8,629 bases of DNA from the NCBI GenBank assembly GCA_003499955.1, contig DNRP01000162.1:1-8629 (forward strand). The letters are read 5' to 3'. Under the pieces are notes generated by a model. It made no database searches and was not told the DNA's origin. It worked only from the letters and a program-made list of their open reading frames with translations. The stretch is from Cyanobacteria bacterium UBA9971. GTDB taxonomy: Bacteria > Cyanobacteriota > Vampirovibrionia > Gastranaerophilales > UBA9971. Positions 154 to 8,629 of this stretch are shown here, in pieces. Within the stretch, counting starts at the first letter, position 1. Each line of letters opens with the position of its first letter. The position numbers and the translations under genes are program-made.

Positions 154-1335
154 TTAATATAAAACCCTGTCCAGAACTTTAAAAGCTTTAAAGTGTTTTT
201 CTGTATCGTGCACGCGGATAATGTTTACTCCCTGCGAAGCCAGATAAGAATTAAGAGCAATATTTGCTTCTTCTTTTTCTTCCGCGGGAAGATTTATAAG
301 AGATTTTCTTGAAACACCCACTAATAAAGCACATCCTAAAGTTTTAAACTCGTTTATTCTCTTTATTATTTCAATATTATGCTCTAAGGTTTTTCCAAAA
401 CCTATGCCCGGGTCAATTATTATGTTTTCAGGTTTGATTCCCGAAGAAATTGCCTTTTGTACTTTATCTGAAAGGCTTTCATAGATTGCATCTATAATGT
501 TTTTTTCATAGGCAGGGTCTATCTGCATTGTTTCAGGGCTTGATAAAGAGTGCATAATTACAACAGGAGCTTGAAGTTCAGAGGCAACAGTAATCATATT
601 TGAATCCCAGTCAAAGCCTGAAACATCATTTATAATATCAGCCCCTGCTTTTATGGCTTCTTTTGCCATAAGAGAGTGTCTGGTATCAATACTTATAGGG
701 ATATTTTTATCAAATTCCCTTATTTTTTTAATTATAGGAAGTACTCTTTTAAGTTCTTCATCGGGAGAAACTTCTTTTGAAAAAGGTTTTGTGGTTTCTC
801 CGCCTATATCTATAATGTCTGCGCCCGATTGAATTAAAATTTTTGCCTGTTCAAAAGCTTTTTCGGGAGTGTTAAATTTTCCTCCATCGGAAAAAGAGTC
901 GGGGGTAACATTTAAGATACCCATTATATAAGTTTTTTGAGACCAATCAAAGGTTTTTTCTCTTATTTTGATTTGTTTAGGTGTTTTGTTTAAGATTTCA
1001 AGCAAGTTTTCTGATAATTTAGCCAGTTTAAAAGGCTGTTTTTTAAGTTTTTCGCATAAAGTTTTTAGTTGAGAATCTGTGCAGCCTATTAAAATGTCGG
1101 TTTTATCAACTTTACAGGTAAGGACTTCTCTGTGAATAGCGGCATCTGCCCCAATTGAAAGCGCCAGCTGTTTTATTATTGAAGATTGAGGGCAGGTTAA
1201 ATCATGGATTTTATAGAGATTAAATTTATATTTTGAAAGTGCCTGTCTTATATACGATTCATCAAAACCTATGTCTTGAATAACTTTTTCAGCACTTTCA
1301 GGGGTTATTTTTCTTATATAAAAATTGTTTTCCAT
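154..1335 (-). CDS. folP: Dihydropteroate synthase, long form with N-terminal extension
   Basis: Cytosolic enzyme of folate synthesis that condenses p-aminobenzoate with 6-hydroxymethyl-dihydropterin pyrophosphate to give dihydropteroate; it is the target of sulfonamides. The TIM-barrel domain covers about residues 134-393. It shows the signature NVTPDSFSDGG (142-152), IDIGGETTKP (175-184, the pterin/pABA loop, usually GGESTRP), SIDTRHS (215-221), NDVSG (236-240), DPGIGFGKT (308-316), GVSRKS (340-345) and IRVHD (373-377). Residues 1-130 form an additional domain that the roughly 280-residue classical enzymes lack. Extended DHPS proteins of about 390-400 residues are known from clostridia and relatives, so this is probably a natural long form and not a start error. 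The ATG is preceded by AAGGAAATA, a good ribosome site. The gene stands alone: its upstream neighbour is closed by a hairpin terminator (1555-1599). No convincing promoter was found. Confidence 0.96.
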   Translation of the reverse strand: MENNFYIRKITPESAEKVIQDIGFDESYIRQALSKYKFNLYKIHDLTCPQSSIIKQLALSIGADAAIHREVLTCKVDKTDILIGCTDSQLKTLCEKLKKQPFKLAKLSENLLEILNKTPKQIKIREKTFDWSQKTYIMGILNVTPDSFSDGGKFNTPEKAFEQAKILIQSGADIIDIGGETTKPFSKEVSPDEELKRVLPIIKKIREFDKNIPISIDTRHSLMAKEAIKAGADIINDVSGFDWDSNMITVASELQAPVVIMHSLSSPETMQIDPAYEKNIIDAIYESLSDKVQKAISSGIKPENIIIDPGIGFGKTLEHNIEIIKRINEFKTLGCALLVGVSRKSLINLPAEEKEEANIALNSYLASQGVNIIRVHDTEKHFKAFKVLDRVLY

Positions 1336-2841: not shown

Positions 2842-5172
2842 TTATATTTTTTCTAATTCAGAAAGTTTTGGATCTAAAAGTCTTCTTCCGACATCATCAA
2901 ACTGGATGCTGCAAAGTCTTTTTTCGTTGGAGCCTATTATTTTTGTTACTGTTCCCAGTCCGTATTTCTCGTGTTTGACTTTGTCGCCTTCCTGAAAATC
3001 ATCATCATAAGAAGCTTCAGTTTGATTTTTAGGGGTTGAATATATAGGAATATCCGGCATTGAAGGTTTTGCCGATTTTGTTTTTTTAGAAGGTTTTGCA
3101 GGTTCTTCATAAGCATTTTCTTCATCATATTCATCAGTTAAATTACTATTATTTTCTTCTTCATCCGAATCATCGTAAAAACTTCCGTAATCCAAAACCG
3201 ATTCATCTTGAAATTCTTCATTTGAACTATAATCAAAGTCTTCATCAACATGTTCATCTTTAGATGAGTATGAAAGCTGGTTATCATCAATATCATCGTC
3301 GAGAAAACTTGATAAATCTTCTTCAGAAAAGCCCGAAGCGTATTTTTTAGGAGGTTCAGAAGGTTCATGTTTAGAAGAGTTATAAATATTTTCGTTTTCA
3401 TTTGCGTCATAAAAAGAGGAGCTGTTTGAATTGATATTGTAGGAATTTTCTTCCGGTTCTTCATCTTCTTCATCTTCTTCAGAATCAGCTTCATCTTCAG
3501 TTTCTTCGTCATAAAAAGAAGAATTGTTAGAATTTGCTTCGTAAGGATCATTCTGTTCCAATTCAAAACTATCATCTTCTTCGTAAGAATCATCCTGTTC
3601 TAACTCAATATCTTCGTCTTCTTCATAAGAATCTTCTGAAACAACAGAATATTCATCGGCTTCAGCAGTTTCTTTTTGAGAAATATGAACTTCTTCCTGC
3701 AATTTTGAAATGTTTTCGACTAATTCAATTCCTGATTCATCGTAATCAAACTGGTTTGAGTAGTTAAAATTCTCTTCATCATCCTCTTCTTCAATTTCAT
3801 CGGTCATTTCATAAGAGAAGGAGTTTGTTGTTGGTAATTCGTCTTCTGTTTCTGCTTCATATTCAGTATTAAGATATATTTCGGGAGATGAACTCGCTAA
3901 ATCAGTTGAATAGTGGCTTTCTTCAAAAACTTCTGTGTCGTAAATATTTGTATATAATGGAATGTTGTTTGTAATTCTTCCTGTAATCACAACTTCGTTA
4001 TCTTTAAGTCTGATTAAGCTTTCCTGTAAGGCTGTAATTTTGGTTGTGTTTTCCGGCGCAAAGGCAATAATATTCGCTGCATAAGACAATAAAGAAACAG
4101 CGGTTTCTGATTCATGCCCGGTAATAATCACAGGACAAACCCCGTTTTTATTGGCTTTTGTGCAAAGATTTTCTATAAAAGCTTTGTCAATGCCGGCTTT
4201 ATCAGCAGCAACTAGTAAAAAGAACTTTTGTTTGTATTTTTTAGTGTTTGAGTCGATTAAAAATTCAATCAGGTCTTTTTGCCAGTCTGACGGGAATTTT
4301 GATAAATCAACTATGACAAGGTTATTAGTTTTAATATTCTCGCTAAAGTTTGTGATTTCTTGTTTTTTATCCGCAAAAACGCCGTTTTTTTCAAGTTTTG
4401 AAAGTTTATTTTTTAATAAAACGAGTTCTGTCAGTTTGTTGGTTGCATAAACAGAATCTACGGCCTGTCTGAAGCTGGAGAAAGGAATATTTTCAATTTC
4501 GCCTGATGAAAGATAATTTTCGACTTCCATAAAGATGTCTTCAACAGTTGCTCTTGTTTCCGCAGAGGCATCCGAAAGGCTTTTTTTATAAAGAAGTTCA
4601 AGTCCTTTTAGGTCAAAAGGAAGTTTAATATTTTTTCCTGCTTCCATAATCAAAGAAACTTTTAAGTCCGAATAGCTGTTATCAAAATCGATTAAGACGG
4701 TTTTTCCTGCTGTTTTAGACAATTCGCAGGATAAAAGACTTAAAATATTATCTTTTTGGGTTTGTTTATCGCAATAAATTACGGTTGGTCTTTCAAAAAA
4801 AGAGGCTTCAAGGTTAACTTCCGTGTCGGGGTACAAAGATAAAATTCCCACAGGAATAGGATTTTGCGCATTTAAAGTATTTGAGCATAACAGAACTTCT
4901 TTAGCTGAAAGTTTATTAATCAAAAAGTCCTGTGACGGAATATTTCCCTGCCAGTTTATTAATTTTCCTGTGTTGTCAAGGGTATATAAAATTTTTGAGT
5001 CAGCTATATTGAAGTTAGGGTTTTTTTCCGCGGTAGAAATTCCTGTAACTTGTACAAGAACGCCGTTTTTTCCTGAGGCTGTTATTTTTAAAATATCTCC
5101 GAGCAAAAGTTGTTTTTCGTTTATATCGAATTTAATTTTGATTTTTTGACCGCTTATCTGTTCAATAAACAT
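2842..5172 (-). CDS. Degenerate HerA-like ATPase fused to an acidic linker and a PcrA/UvrD-type C-terminal Tudor-like domain
   Basis: Three parts. Residues 1-48 resemble the HAS barrel of HerA (LLLGDILKI...VLVQVTGI). Residues about 107-412 follow the HerA ATPase order: PVGILSLYPDTEVNL, then a P-loop position, VLIDFDNSY (159-167), LVLLKNKLSKLEKNGVF (250-266), LVIVDLSKFPSDWQKDLI (285-302, like the HerA IDLSGLP segment), FFLLVAADKAG (317-327), PVIITGHES (347-355) and VVITGRITNNIPL (394-406). The catalytic parts are gone: YCDKQTQKDN (133-142) stands where HerA has its P-loop GxxGSGKS, and VAAD replaces the Walker B acids. Residues 413-725 are a disordered, very acidic linker with short repeats. 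Residues 726-776 (FQEGDKVKHEKYGLGTVTKI...) match the C-terminal domain of PcrA/UvrD helicases, which contacts RNA polymerase. I infer a non-hydrolysing scaffold at DNA or RNA polymerase. The ATG follows GAGGT, and the gene starts 42 bp after the 151-aa gene. Confidence 0.8.
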   Translation of the reverse strand: MFIEQISGQKIKIKFDINEKQLLLGDILKITASGKNGVLVQVTGISTAEKNPNFNIADSKILYTLDNTGKLINWQGNIPSQDFLINKLSAKEVLLCSNTLNAQNPIPVGILSLYPDTEVNLEASFFERPTVIYCDKQTQKDNILSLLSCELSKTAGKTVLIDFDNSYSDLKVSLIMEAGKNIKLPFDLKGLELLYKKSLSDASAETRATVEDIFMEVENYLSSGEIENIPFSSFRQAVDSVYATNKLTELVLLKNKLSKLEKNGVFADKKQEITNFSENIKTNNLVIVDLSKFPSDWQKDLIEFLIDSNTKKYKQKFFLLVAADKAGIDKAFIENLCTKANKNGVCPVIITGHESETAVSLLSYAANIIAFAPENTTKITALQESLIRLKDNEVVITGRITNNIPLYTNIYDTEVFEESHYSTDLASSSPEIYLNTEYEAETEDELPTTNSFSYEMTDEIEEEDDEENFNYSNQFDYDESGIELVENISKLQEEVHISQKETAEADEYSVVSEDSYEEDEDIELEQDDSYEEDDSFELEQNDPYEANSNNSSFYDEETEDEADSEEDEEDEEPEENSYNINSNSSSFYDANENENIYNSSKHEPSEPPKKYASGFSEEDLSSFLDDDIDDNQLSYSSKDEHVDEDFDYSSNEEFQDESVLDYGSFYDDSDEEENNSNLTDEYDEENAYEEPAKPSKKTKSAKPSMPDIPIYSTPKNQTEASYDDDFQEGDKVKHEKYGLGTVTKIIGSNEKRLCSIQFDDVGRRLLDPKLSELEKI
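3550..3633 (-). repeat. Tandem 14-residue repeat in the acidic linker
   Basis: Two adjacent 42-bp units in the 776-aa gene encode DSYEEDEDIELEQD (residues 514-527) and DSYEEDDSFELEQN (528-541), followed by a partial third start, DPYEA. A second motif, NSN(N/S)SSFYD, occurs at 547-555 and 581-589, with a weaker GSFYDD at 663-668. The pattern points to expansion of the linker by short duplications. Confidence 0.7.
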
Positions 5173-5214
5173 CTTTTTATGTGACCTCTATTTTTTATTG
5201 ATTATACCTTAAGT

Positions 5215-5670
5215 TTACATGAAAAAGTCATCATCATCTACAAGTTTGCTAAATAAGTTTTTTGCGTAGTTTTCCGGTGAATCAAAACTCCATTTTATAT
5301 CATGCGAGTCAGGATTTATAGTAAATGAAATCGGCGTCAGGTGTTTTGTTACTCCTTTCCAGATATAAAGCGGGATTATAGTTGTCTTAATAACATTATC
5401 CGGTATTTCTATTTTACCTTTTTGAAAAATTATTCGGTGAAATCTTCCTTCTATAAAAAATCTGTTTTTTCCTTCGGATTTAAAGTTAACGGCGTTACAT
5501 TGGAGTTTTTTATTTAAAGATTCGGTGATGGTTTGGAAAATACCGGCAAATTCTTCGTTAAAAATTTTGTTTACAACGGGTTCAATCACGGTATTTTTAT
5601 ATTCTTCCGTTTCTTTGGCAAGAGTCAGTTTATTTTTAAATTTTTCTGCCAGATCCTCGATATCAATCAT
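5215..5670 (-). CDS. Orphan protein of 151 aa, probable operon partner of the HerA-like gene
   Basis: I do not recognise a family. Residues 1-55 are rich in Lys and Glu and probably helical (MIDIEDLAEKFKNK...). Residues 60-125 alternate hydrophobic and polar residues, as in a beta-rich domain (NRFFIEGRFHRIIF, 69-82; TTIIPLYIWKG, 96-106). The C-terminus is LVDDDDFFM: an acidic run capped by hydrophobic residues, which resembles in style the protein-binding tip of single-stranded DNA-binding protein (DDDIPF) without matching it exactly. There is no signal peptide or membrane segment. The gene ends 42 bp before the HerA-like gene in the same direction with no terminator between, so the products may work together. 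It is too short and too different to be NurA, the usual HerA partner. The ATG is preceded at 9-13 bases by GGAAG. Confidence 0.72.
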   Translation of the reverse strand: MIDIEDLAEKFKNKLTLAKETEEYKNTVIEPVVNKIFNEEFAGIFQTITESLNKKLQCNAVNFKSEGKNRFFIEGRFHRIIFQKGKIEIPDNVIKTTIIPLYIWKGVTKHLTPISFTINPDSHDIKWSFDSPENYAKNLFSKLVDDDDFFM

Positions 5671-5927: not shown

Positions 5928-6335
5928 ATGAAATTATTTAAAAAAATTTTTGAATTTGTTTTTAAAAATAATAATGATAATTGGGTTGAATATATTGAAT
6001 CAGATAAACCTTTTAATTTAACTGACCAATCTTCCTATCAATTTACTTGGGGGCGTATTTCAAAGCCATCTAAAAATATGAATGATTATACATTTTCAAA
6101 TATGGAATATCAATTTACTTCAGTGGGTTTTTTTAGTCACGATCAAAGAAATGGACATCAATTTACTTGGGGTATAAATAAAAAAGAATATAAAAGACTC
6201 AAAAAATTATCCATAAAATCAAAAAAAATAACATTTACTAATCCTCAGGTTATAAATATTGCTGTTTGGGGACTTATTATTCTTCCTTGTATAATTTACG
6301 CAGATAAAATTTTTCAAAAATTTATACGTGCATAA
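5928..6335 (+). CDS. Orphan membrane-anchored protein of 135 aa with QFTWG repeats
   Basis: Unrecognised protein. It has a basic, amphipathic N-terminus (MKLFKKIFEFVFK), then a polar middle with three copies of a short motif: YQFTWG (37-42), YQFTSVG (61-67) and HQFTWG (77-82). A basic stretch follows (KEYKRLKKLSIKSKK, 86-100), then one probable membrane segment (about 108-123, VINIAVWGLIILPCII) and a basic tail. The motif copies share the DNA block ATCAATTTACTT at 6037, 6109 and 6157, spaced 72 and 48 bp. No signal peptide is apparent; the protein would be anchored near its C-terminus. The ATG follows AAAGGTGATTT, a good ribosome site. The gene is very AT-rich, more than the leftward genes and much more than comM, which suggests acquired DNA. 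It stands upstream of the MNT/HEPN pair in the same direction, 89 bp before it. Confidence 0.65.
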   Translation: MKLFKKIFEFVFKNNNDNWVEYIESDKPFNLTDQSSYQFTWGRISKPSKNMNDYTFSNMEYQFTSVGFFSHDQRNGHQFTWGINKKEYKRLKKLSIKSKKITFTNPQVINIAVWGLIILPCIIYADKIFQKFIRA

Positions 6336-6424: not shown

Positions 6425-6742
6425 ATGCCGGATAAAAAAATTCTGGACAAAATAATAGAAGCAATCTTGAAAGTTGTTAAACCTGACAAAATAATTTTGT
6501 TTGGTTCGCAAGCTCGGGGAGATGCTCGTCCTGACAGCGATTATGATATTTTAATAATTAAATCGGGCATTGAGAATGAAAGAAAAATTGCTCATTCTAT
6601 CTATAGAATTCTTGTTGATTTTGATACTCCTATAGGTGTTGATATAATCGTAAAAACTCCTGAAAGCGTTGAAGAAAATAAAAAAATGGTTGTTTCTGTG
6701 GTAAAGCAAGCTCTTAAAGAAGGTGTTGTTATTTATGGATAA
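6425..6742 (+). CDS. MNT-type nucleotidyltransferase (MntA-like antitoxin candidate)
   Basis: A minimal nucleotidyltransferase of the polymerase-beta fold. Proteins of this kind paired with HEPN proteins can act as antitoxins by transferring AMP to the HEPN partner. The active-site signature is complete: FGSQARGDARPDSDYDILI (26-44), i.e. GS-X10-D-X-D with Gly27, Ser28, Asp39 and Asp41, and a third acidic residue at Asp73 in VDIIV. At 105 residues it has the usual size for stand-alone MNT proteins and no added domains. The ATG follows AAAGGTG at about 8 bases. Its stop overlaps the start of the HEPN gene, which implies translational coupling. The pair is AT-rich compared with comM and bracketed by a direct repeat. 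The assignment to the family is firm; the antitoxin role is inferred from pairing. Confidence 0.9.
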   Translation: MPDKKILDKIIEAILKVVKPDKIILFGSQARGDARPDSDYDILIIKSGIENERKIAHSIYRILVDFDTPIGVDIIVKTPESVEENKKMVVSVVKQALKEGVVIYG

Positions 6743-7130
6743 TGCACAAACTTGGATTAAAAGGGCAAAAAGTAATTTGATAAGAGGCAAGGATAGTTCT
6801 TATCTTGATTTAAAAGATATAAATCTTGAGGACTTATGTTTTGATCTTCAACAGTGTGCGGAAAAATCTTTAAAAGCAATATTAATAAAAAATAATATAG
6901 AATTCCCCAAAACTCATAATATATCAGAATTATTGATATTAATAAGACAAAAAACAACAATTATTATTCCTGAAAAAATAAAAGAAGCAGCTATTCTAAC
7001 GGATTATGCGGTAAACACAAGGTATCCTTCCGATTTTACGCCCGTTTCTTTAGAGGAACATAAAGAAACTTTAGAAATAGCGGAAAATGTTTATAATTGG
7101 GCAAAAAATATTATAGAAGCAGGAAAATAA
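6735..7130 (+). CDS. HEPN-domain protein (PF05168-type), partner of the nucleotidyltransferase
   Basis: A 131-residue all-helical HEPN protein. Family features are CFDLQQCAEKSLKAIL (35-50), FPKTHNISELL (57-67) and TDYAVNTRYPSDF (89-101). HEPN proteins paired with MNT enzymes are often RNase toxins using an R-X4-6-H motif. Here the conserved arginine, Arg96 of TRYP, has no histidine at the required distance (Phe101, Thr102 and Pro103 stand there; the next histidine is 109), so RNase activity of the usual type is doubtful. I chose the ATG at 6735 because the protein then begins MDNAQTWIKRAK as in relatives, and AAGAAGGTG lies 9 bases upstream. A GTG at 6723 in the same frame is possible but less likely. 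The gene overlaps the MNT gene by 8 bp, and its TAA directly abuts the comM ATG. Confidence 0.88.
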   Translation: MDNAQTWIKRAKSNLIRGKDSSYLDLKDINLEDLCFDLQQCAEKSLKAILIKNNIEFPKTHNISELLILIRQKTTIIIPEKIKEAAILTDYAVNTRYPSDFTPVSLEEHKETLEIAENVYNWAKNIIEAGK

Positions 7131-7141
7131 ATGATAGCAAA
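7128..7141 (+). repeat. Right copy of the 14-bp direct repeat
   Basis: TAAATGATAGCAAA, identical to 6364-6377. Its first three bases are the HEPN stop codon and the rest is the start of comM. It marks the right edge of the proposed MNT/HEPN cassette. Confidence 0.75.
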
Positions 7142-8629
7142 TGTAATAACCGGAGCGATAATTGGGATTGAAGGGTATAAAATCACTGTTGAAGTTGATA
7201 TTTGCTCGACAATACCTGGATTTACCATTGTAGGATTGCCTGATATGGCGGTTTCGGAAGCAAAAGAAAGAATCCGCTCCGCGATAAAAAATTCGGGTTA
7301 TGATTTTCCCTCAAGAAAAATCGTTATAAATCTCGCGCCGGCGGATATCAGAAAAGAAGGCTCGGGGTTTGATCTTCCCATGGCGGTCGGGGTTTTGGCG
7401 GCGAATGGGGATATTAAGTTTGAATCCCTTGAAAACGTTGGTTTTCTCGGTGAATTATCTCTTGACGGAAGCCTTAGAGCCGTTAACGGAGTTTTGCCGA
7501 TTACGCTTGGTTTGAAAAAAGCAGGGGTAACAAAAATCGTTGTGCCTGAAAAAAACGCGAAAGAAGCCGCTCTTGTTGATGGGGTCGAGGTTTATCCCGT
7601 AAATGACCTTCAGGATGTGTTCAAGTTTCTTAATCCGCCTGCTATTGCGGATTTCAGAATCAAGCCTTTTACTATTGATGTTAAGGAAATCCTTGAAAAA
7701 ACAGCGCAAGAAGAAATACAGTTTGATTTTAAGGATGTAAAAGGACAGGAAAAAGCAAAAAGGGCTTTAGAAATTGCCGCGGCGGGCGGGCATAATATTC
7801 TTATGTCAGGTCCTCCGGGGTCGGGCAAAACCCTTCTTGCAAAATGTTTTGCAGCGATTTTGCCCCCTCTGGAATTTTCTGAAGCCATGGAGCTTACTAA
7901 AATTTACAGTGTCAGCGGGCTTCTGGAAAAAGACGAGCCGTTAATAACTTCCAGACCTTTTCGCTCGCCGCATCATTCCGCTTCTTACGCGGGGATTGTC
8001 GGAGGAGGAACAAATCCAAAGCCGGGAGAAATTAGTCTTGCTCACAGAGGCGTACTTTTTATGGATGAAGTTGTAGAATTTCCAAGGCAAGTTCTGGAAA
8101 TTCTAAGACAACCGCTCGAAGATGGAGAAGTTACCATAAGCAGAGCCATGGTAAGTGTTAAATATCCTGCCGATTTTACTTTGCTTGCCGCGATGAATCC
8201 CTGTCCGTGCGGGTATTTTGGAGATAAATTAAAGCCGTGCGTCTGTTCCGAGTTTCAGGCAAAAAAATATTGGGCAAGGCTTTCAGGTCCGATTCTGGAC
8301 AGGATTGATTTACAGATAGAAGTTTCAAGGCTTTCCGAAGACGAGCTTTTAAGCAAAAACACTAATTCTGAAAGTTCAAAAACCATAAGAGAAAGGGTTG
8401 TAAAAGCCAGAAAGATTCAAGTTGAAAGGTTTAAAGACGAGGGAATCGTGTCCAATTCCCAAATTTCGCCAAAGCTTATTAAAAAGTATTGCCAGCTTGA
8501 CTCAAACGGCGAAAATCTTTTGAGGATGGCTATTAATAAGTTTAATCTTTCGGGGCGGGCGTATGACAGGATTTTGAAGCTTTCCAGAACTATTGCGGAT
8601 CTTAAGGACAGTGAAAATATTACGCAGGC
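7131..8629 (+). CDS. comM: ComM/YifB-type Mg-chelatase-like AAA+ ATPase, 3' end beyond the window
   Basis: Cytosolic hexameric AAA+ helicase; in naturally competent bacteria ComM drives branch migration during integration of transformed DNA, and in others the role is less clear. The 499 residues in the window include the N-terminal ChlI-type domain (about 1-165, with PGFTIVGLPDMAVSEAKERI at 29-48), the AAA+ core with Walker A GPPGSGKT (227-234), FRSPHHSAS (277-285), Walker B GVLFMDEV (307-314), a four-cysteine cluster typical of the family (Cys358, Cys360, Cys370, Cys372), and ILDRIDL (388-394), followed by the C-terminal Mg-chelatase region (NLSGRAYDRILKLSRTIADL, 472-491). Family members are about 505-510 residues, so perhaps ten are missing. 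The ATG abuts the HEPN stop, with AGGAAAATAA before it. G+C is clearly higher than in the upstream pair. No separate promoter is seen, so it is probably co-transcribed with the pair. Confidence 0.95.
   Translation, partial: MIANVITGAIIGIEGYKITVEVDICSTIPGFTIVGLPDMAVSEAKERIRSAIKNSGYDFPSRKIVINLAPADIRKEGSGFDLPMAVGVLAANGDIKFESLENVGFLGELSLDGSLRAVNGVLPITLGLKKAGVTKIVVPEKNAKEAALVDGVEVYPVNDLQDVFKFLNPPAIADFRIKPFTIDVKEILEKTAQEEIQFDFKDVKGQEKAKRALEIAAAGGHNILMSGPPGSGKTLLAKCFAAILPPLEFSEAMELTKIYSVSGLLEKDEPLITSRPFRSPHHSASYAGIVGGGTNPKPGEISLAHRGVLFMDEVVEFPRQVLEILRQPLEDGEVTISRAMVSVKYPADFTLLAAMNPCPCGYFGDKLKPCVCSEFQAKKYWARLSGPILDRIDLQIEVSRLSEDELLSKNTNSESSKTIRERVVKARKIQVERFKDEGIVSNSQISPKLIKKYCQLDSNGENLLRMAINKFNLSGRAYDRILKLSRTIADLKDSENITQ

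Follow-up and report, generated by a model that had tools for sequence, protein, structure and literature searches.

A predicted HerA-fold protein lacking the HerA catalytic motifs, joined through an acidic arm to a PcrA/UvrD-type Tudor domain and retained across a bacterial order

The main gene of the window (the whole 8,629-nucleotide stretch of DNA analysed here) encodes a 776-residue protein whose sequence shows homology to HerA, with a predicted HerA fold, but which has none of the catalytic motifs of HerA (Walker A, Walker B and the glutamine-arginine sensor). An acidic linker, here called the arm, joins its HerA-type domain to a Tudor domain of the PcrA/UvrD type, an arrangement that an earlier note on this DNA had proposed and that profile, structural and motif evidence now bears out. 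Our preferred reading is that the protein is a non-enzymatic HerA-fold scaffold with arms and Tudor heads, for which UvrB is a likelier partner than RNA polymerase; we hold it tentatively, at a probability of about 0.38. The layout of the gene and the basis for each assignment are as follows.

2842..5172, minus strand: main gene, a 776-residue predicted HerA-fold pseudo-ATPase with an acidic arm and a Tudor domain (open reading frame and homologues)
4864..5172, minus strand: N-terminal part resembling a HAS barrel, residues ~1-103 with an approximate boundary (beta-rich in the model)
3922..4863, minus strand: RecA-like domain of HerA type that lacks the catalytic motifs, residues ~104-417 (HerA profile and structural matches; PF01935 in relative P0026)
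4747..4776, minus strand: former Walker A site, YCDKQTQKDN, residues 133-142 (alignment with two canonical HerAs)
4672..4695, minus strand: LIDFDNSY, residues 160-167, including Asp 162 (alignment of 123 N-domains)
4192..4224, minus strand: former Walker B site, FFLLVAADKAG, residues 317-327 (alignment with canonical HerAs)
3013..3921, minus strand: acidic arm, predicted disordered, residues 418-720 (composition; pLDDT mostly below 50)
3301..3330, minus strand: arm motif FSEEDLSSFL, residues 615-624 (pattern common to 56/77 dereplicated arms)
3034..3054, minus strand: arm motif DIPIYST, residues 707-713, an instance of [ILV]P[IVL]Y before the Tudor domain (pattern in 73/77 arms)
2845..3003, minus strand: PcrA/UvrD-type Tudor domain, residues 724-776 (PF21196; PDB sequence matches)

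The N-terminal domain gives a significant profile match to the HerA of Sulfolobus (4d2i), and the structural match to HerA covers residues 1-417 of the predicted model, whose fold is RecA/HerA-like; on both counts the assignment made in the earlier note stands. The HAS barrel and the RecA-like core by which membership of HerA is recognised are both present, and in relative P0026 the HerA-type domain is matched by PF01935. In the predicted structure, which is that of a monomer, residues 1-417 are well folded and residues 724-776 are folded, with the arm between them mostly below a pLDDT of 50. That the N-terminal domain adopts a HerA fold and that the arm is disordered are thus both predictions of the model.

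To describe the catalytic sites across the family we used 123 distinct N-domains (275 matches minus duplicates, sequences containing X and short sequences), aligned with canonical HerAs as controls. The Walker A pattern GxxxxGK[ST] occurs in 0/123 of these N-domains, with both canonical controls positive; an intact P-loop is therefore seen in none of these relatives. The P-loop lysine column holds K in 38/123, the window protein included, but K followed by S or T is seen in only one, and no substitute residue within the P-loop exceeds about 61%. The acidic pair DE of Walker B is present in 5 of the 123, the window protein reading DK there, and the SQRP sensor (the glutamine-arginine sensor of HerA) is absent as well. 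One catalytic-region residue is kept, Asp 162, in 123/123. The degeneracy first noticed in a single copy is therefore a property of the family, the motifs being lost in 123/123 distinct N-domains, and the dN/dS values given below likewise argue against one decayed gene. The family N-domains are also net acidic, with a median charge of -19 and a range of -25 to -2 in 206 partly redundant sequences, a set that omits those without a recognisable Tudor start; residues 1-417 of the window protein carry a net charge of -7.

Compared with HerA, a dsDNA translocase of archaea and bacteria (Sulfolobus 4d2i, for example), the window protein therefore lacks both Walker motifs and the SQRP sensor and adds the acidic arm and the Tudor domain. 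It differs too in its genomic company, since NurA is absent from this genome (83% complete) and from 39/40 genomes, the fortieth giving one weak match. Full-length canonical HerA is found in only 2/40 genomes, in both beside a SIR2-type gene; by Pfam and PADLOC, loci L031 and L032 of relatives G002 and G003 hold complete gene pairs of the SIR2-HerA type. The HerAs of the SIR2-HerA and DUF4297-HerA defence systems keep the P-loop and adjoin an effector gene, whereas PADLOC returned no match for the window protein, nor for its 151-residue neighbour. In a sister order (loci L221-L227, family f8), a canonical HerA of ~540 residues adjoins four conserved genes of ~290-365 residues. In EccC5, an ATPase of type VII secretion, an ATPase domain belonging to the wider FtsK/HerA group is likewise degenerate (PMC11154593).

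Homologues are present, as a single gene, in 40/40 relatives examined. In a phylum sample of 386 genomes, matches were obtained in 170 of the 173 genomes of the same order, and in none of the 10 same-class genomes outside the order or of the 203 others (196 of them not itemised). The order carrying the family is apparently Gastranaerophilales, going by the named relatives, a gut and groundwater lineage that is common in the gut and poorly studied. No internal stops occur in the listed homologue matches from the 40 relatives and the phylum sample. Across six genome pairs, dN/dS of residues 1-415 is 0.08 for the two closest genomes and rises to at most 0.22, and that of the arm lies between 0.32 and 0.58 (six genome pairs). 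By this measure the degenerate N-domain is under purifying selection.

The arm (residues 418-720) is 34.7% D/E, with a net charge of -93, and is unalignable across the family, yet short motifs are kept inside it. The pattern [FLY][ST][DE][DE][DE][LI]xx[FLIM], abbreviated FSxxDLxxF, is found in 56 of the 77 arms that remain of 206 after dereplication, against a mean of 0.16 and a maximum of 2 in shuffles, figures to be read in the light of its definition after inspection of the sequences and of the non-independence of related arms. It is missing from 21/77, and in families f3, f6 and f7 none of the sampled arms has it. The second pattern, [ILV]P[IVL]Y, lies ~25 residues N-terminal to the Tudor domain in 73/77 arms (shuffles: mean 1.26, maximum 4) and in 95/99 in a separate count. 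Conserved short motifs within disordered chains are usually docking sites, and we infer from this analysis that FSxxDLxxF and PxIPIY are candidate docking sites; the candidate docking peptides of the window protein are GFSEEDLSSFLDDD and MPDIPIYSTPK.

The Tudor domain, which serves the repair helicase UvrD/PcrA for docking to other proteins, matches PF21196 (PcrA/UvrD Tudor) at 30.3 bits against a cut-off of 23.9, and its PDB sequence matches are the PcrA/UvrD Tudor chains 9dqs, 4c2t and 5dma; P0026 lies just below the Pfam cut-off at 23.6, as do some other relatives. In PcrA, residues H681, W684, K712 and L714 are each required for RNA polymerase binding, according to the available part of PMC5397179. 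At the corresponding positions, matched to PcrA by eye in 87 distinct Tudor sequences (those without a recognisable Tudor start being omitted), the family has H in 54/87, Y in 86/87, R in 80/87 and L in 83/87, so that the aromatic and basic character of the binding face is kept relative to PcrA but its identity is not. The domain is thus like the PcrA/UvrD Tudor (5dma, PF21196) in its Pfam and PDB sequence matches and in mostly keeping the binding-face residues, and unlike it in not being carried on a helicase and in the absence of the usual RpoB docking motif.

That motif, the helicase-interaction motif, forms the TGE hairpin of RpoB gripped by the PcrA Tudor domain and also recruits PcrA to UvrB (both from the accessible part of PMC8318588). 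The published pattern, [VIL]DxxTGE[VIL][VILT], is found in 0/11 partial RpoB reads of relatives (432-855 residues), nor is it in the readable part of the RpoB of this genome, where 45 residues read X; a TGE turn does occur elsewhere in RpoB in 10/11 reads, outside the published pattern. In UvrB the motif is present in strict form in 2/9 and, with D or N allowed at the second place, in 5/9, the UvrB of this genome among the latter, and is absent from the UvrB of 4/9 relatives even in relaxed form. It is probable that the Tudor domain binds some partner, although the textbook one is missing, and we infer from these sequences that UvrB is a better candidate than RNA polymerase. However, UvrB is not demonstrable as the common partner, since 4/9 UvrBs are without the motif while the Tudor domain is family-wide. 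The link to RNA polymerase suggested in the earlier note is weakened by the missing RpoB motif, although the Tudor residues on which PcrA depends for that binding are largely kept.

Six UvrDs (L172, L173, L174, L176, L177 and L178) have a diverged Tudor-like C-terminus of their own, making two such domains per genome possible; with UvrD having its own Tudor-like end, the Tudor domain considered here could therefore serve another use. The Pfam Tudor model matched mostly the HerA-like protein and not UvrD.

Two neighbouring genes bear on the setting of the main gene.

5215..5670, minus strand: 151-residue companion gene, upstream of the main gene in a minority of relatives (10/40 genomes)
7131..8627, plus strand: ComM-type gene (Mg-chelatase-like ATPase), presumably comM, cut by the window end (PF01078, PF13541, PF13335)

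Wherever the companion gene occurs (10/10 genomes having it) it directly adjoins the main gene on the same strand. Its product matches no Pfam family above cut-off and has a predicted fold without a convincing match, a long helix at the N-terminus and a beta sheet being predicted, and it contains invariant EGxxRF and WKGxxKHL motifs. In the 45-base gap between the two genes, a TATAAT-like box lies at about 5190-5210 on the minus strand, and the main gene may therefore have its own promoter. The ComM-type gene is divergent and lies beside or near the main gene in 10/21 loci, spread over four families; it is missing from 11/21, including all seven loci of family f2, whose gene neighbours vary widely. 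Such a neighbour would be in keeping with a role in recombination or repair but is proof of neither. Elsewhere in the window, an NTP_transf_2 nucleotidyltransferase reading frame overlapping a HEPN frame (6425-7130, plus strand) looks like a HEPN-MNT toxin-antitoxin pair; it lies between the companion gene and the ComM-type gene, which is not so in relative L089. A 135-residue reading frame at 5928-6335 (plus strand) matches no Pfam family above cut-off, and 154-1335 (minus strand) encodes a pterin-binding enzyme of the dihydropteroate synthase type with about 137 extra residues ahead of the Pfam domain.

In the mechanism we propose, the HerA-fold domain would no longer use ATP and would have taken on a scaffold role. 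The HerA-fold domains would form an oligomer, putatively a ring, presenting several long acidic arms that each end in a PcrA-type Tudor domain. The arm motifs FSxxDLxxF and PxIPIY would act as docking sites, the Tudor domain would grip beta-hairpin partners via the same face as in PcrA, and UvrB rather than RNA polymerase would be bound, with repair factors collected or withheld in competition with UvrD. A more specific version, in which an order-defining dead HerA ring with six or seven arms is an ATP-free, multivalent hub for UvrB/UvrD-type repair machinery, a new class of bacterial scaffold occupying the place of HerA-NurA in other organisms, is one we regard as unlikely.

The scaffold could also be unrelated to DNA: its HerA-fold domain would then be a hub on which proteins of the envelope, of division or of secretion assemble, and the Tudor domain a generic peptide reader. 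The lost motifs for DNA translocation, the acidic N-domain, the widely differing neighbours of family f2 and the precedent of a degenerate FtsK/HerA superfamily domain in EccC5 (accessible part of PMC11154593) make this a possibility to be taken seriously, though on balance it is doubtful, given that the Tudor domain belongs specifically to the PcrA/UvrD family and that four families have retained a ComM-type gene as neighbour. The earlier note had suggested a DNA-bound ring, and with it a Tudor tether to RNA polymerase linking DNA to transcription. HerA relatives do encircle DNA (from the available parts of PMC9960219 and PMC5715905), and the Tudor face that PcrA uses is largely kept. Against the tether stands the RpoB motif, missing from all 11 partial reads and from the readable RpoB of this genome, and the DNA ring is weakened both by the net acidic N-domains and by the Sulfolobus HerA Walker A mutant K154A, which lost dsDNA binding and formed no nucleotide complex (accessible part of PMC5715905), so that we consider this reading rather unlikely.

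Retention of some nucleotide binding, in a non-standard form coupled to a switch of shape, would make sense of the lysine kept in the P-loop column of 38/123 N-domains, the window protein included, and of the universal Asp 162. It seems improbable given the counts for GxxxxGK[ST] (0/123), for K with S or T (1/123) and for the Walker B pair (5/123), and given that no P-loop replacement rises above about 61%. A regulatory subunit in a mixed ring with an active ATPase would have a possible mate in the product of the ComM-type gene lying divergently beside it in 10/21 loci. However, that gene is unlinked in family f2, ComM belongs to another ATPase class than HerA, and full-length canonical HerA is found in only 2/40 genomes; we therefore think a mixed ring very improbable. 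A decaying HerA gene, as the vanished catalytic motifs alone might suggest, is contradicted by the homologues in 40/40 relatives, by the lack of internal stops in the listed matches and by the dN/dS of 0.08 to 0.22 for the dead domain, and we reject it as virtually excluded.

The earlier note knew of no described protein with such a combination, and our searches of the open PMC literature likewise turned up no paper on a HerA pseudo-enzyme that carries a Tudor domain. The parts are each known; what did not emerge from the papers searched is a clade of dead HerAs, the joining of such a HerA to a Tudor domain via a motif-bearing acidic arm, and the order-wide fixation of the whole. If the non-enzymatic scaffold reading is true, a DNA motor would have been turned into a scaffold and then retained across a whole bacterial order, and a Tudor domain would have been transferred from a helicase to a non-helicase. 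The gene would then be a marker for Gastranaerophilales, and its two short docking motifs would allow the partners to be fished for directly.
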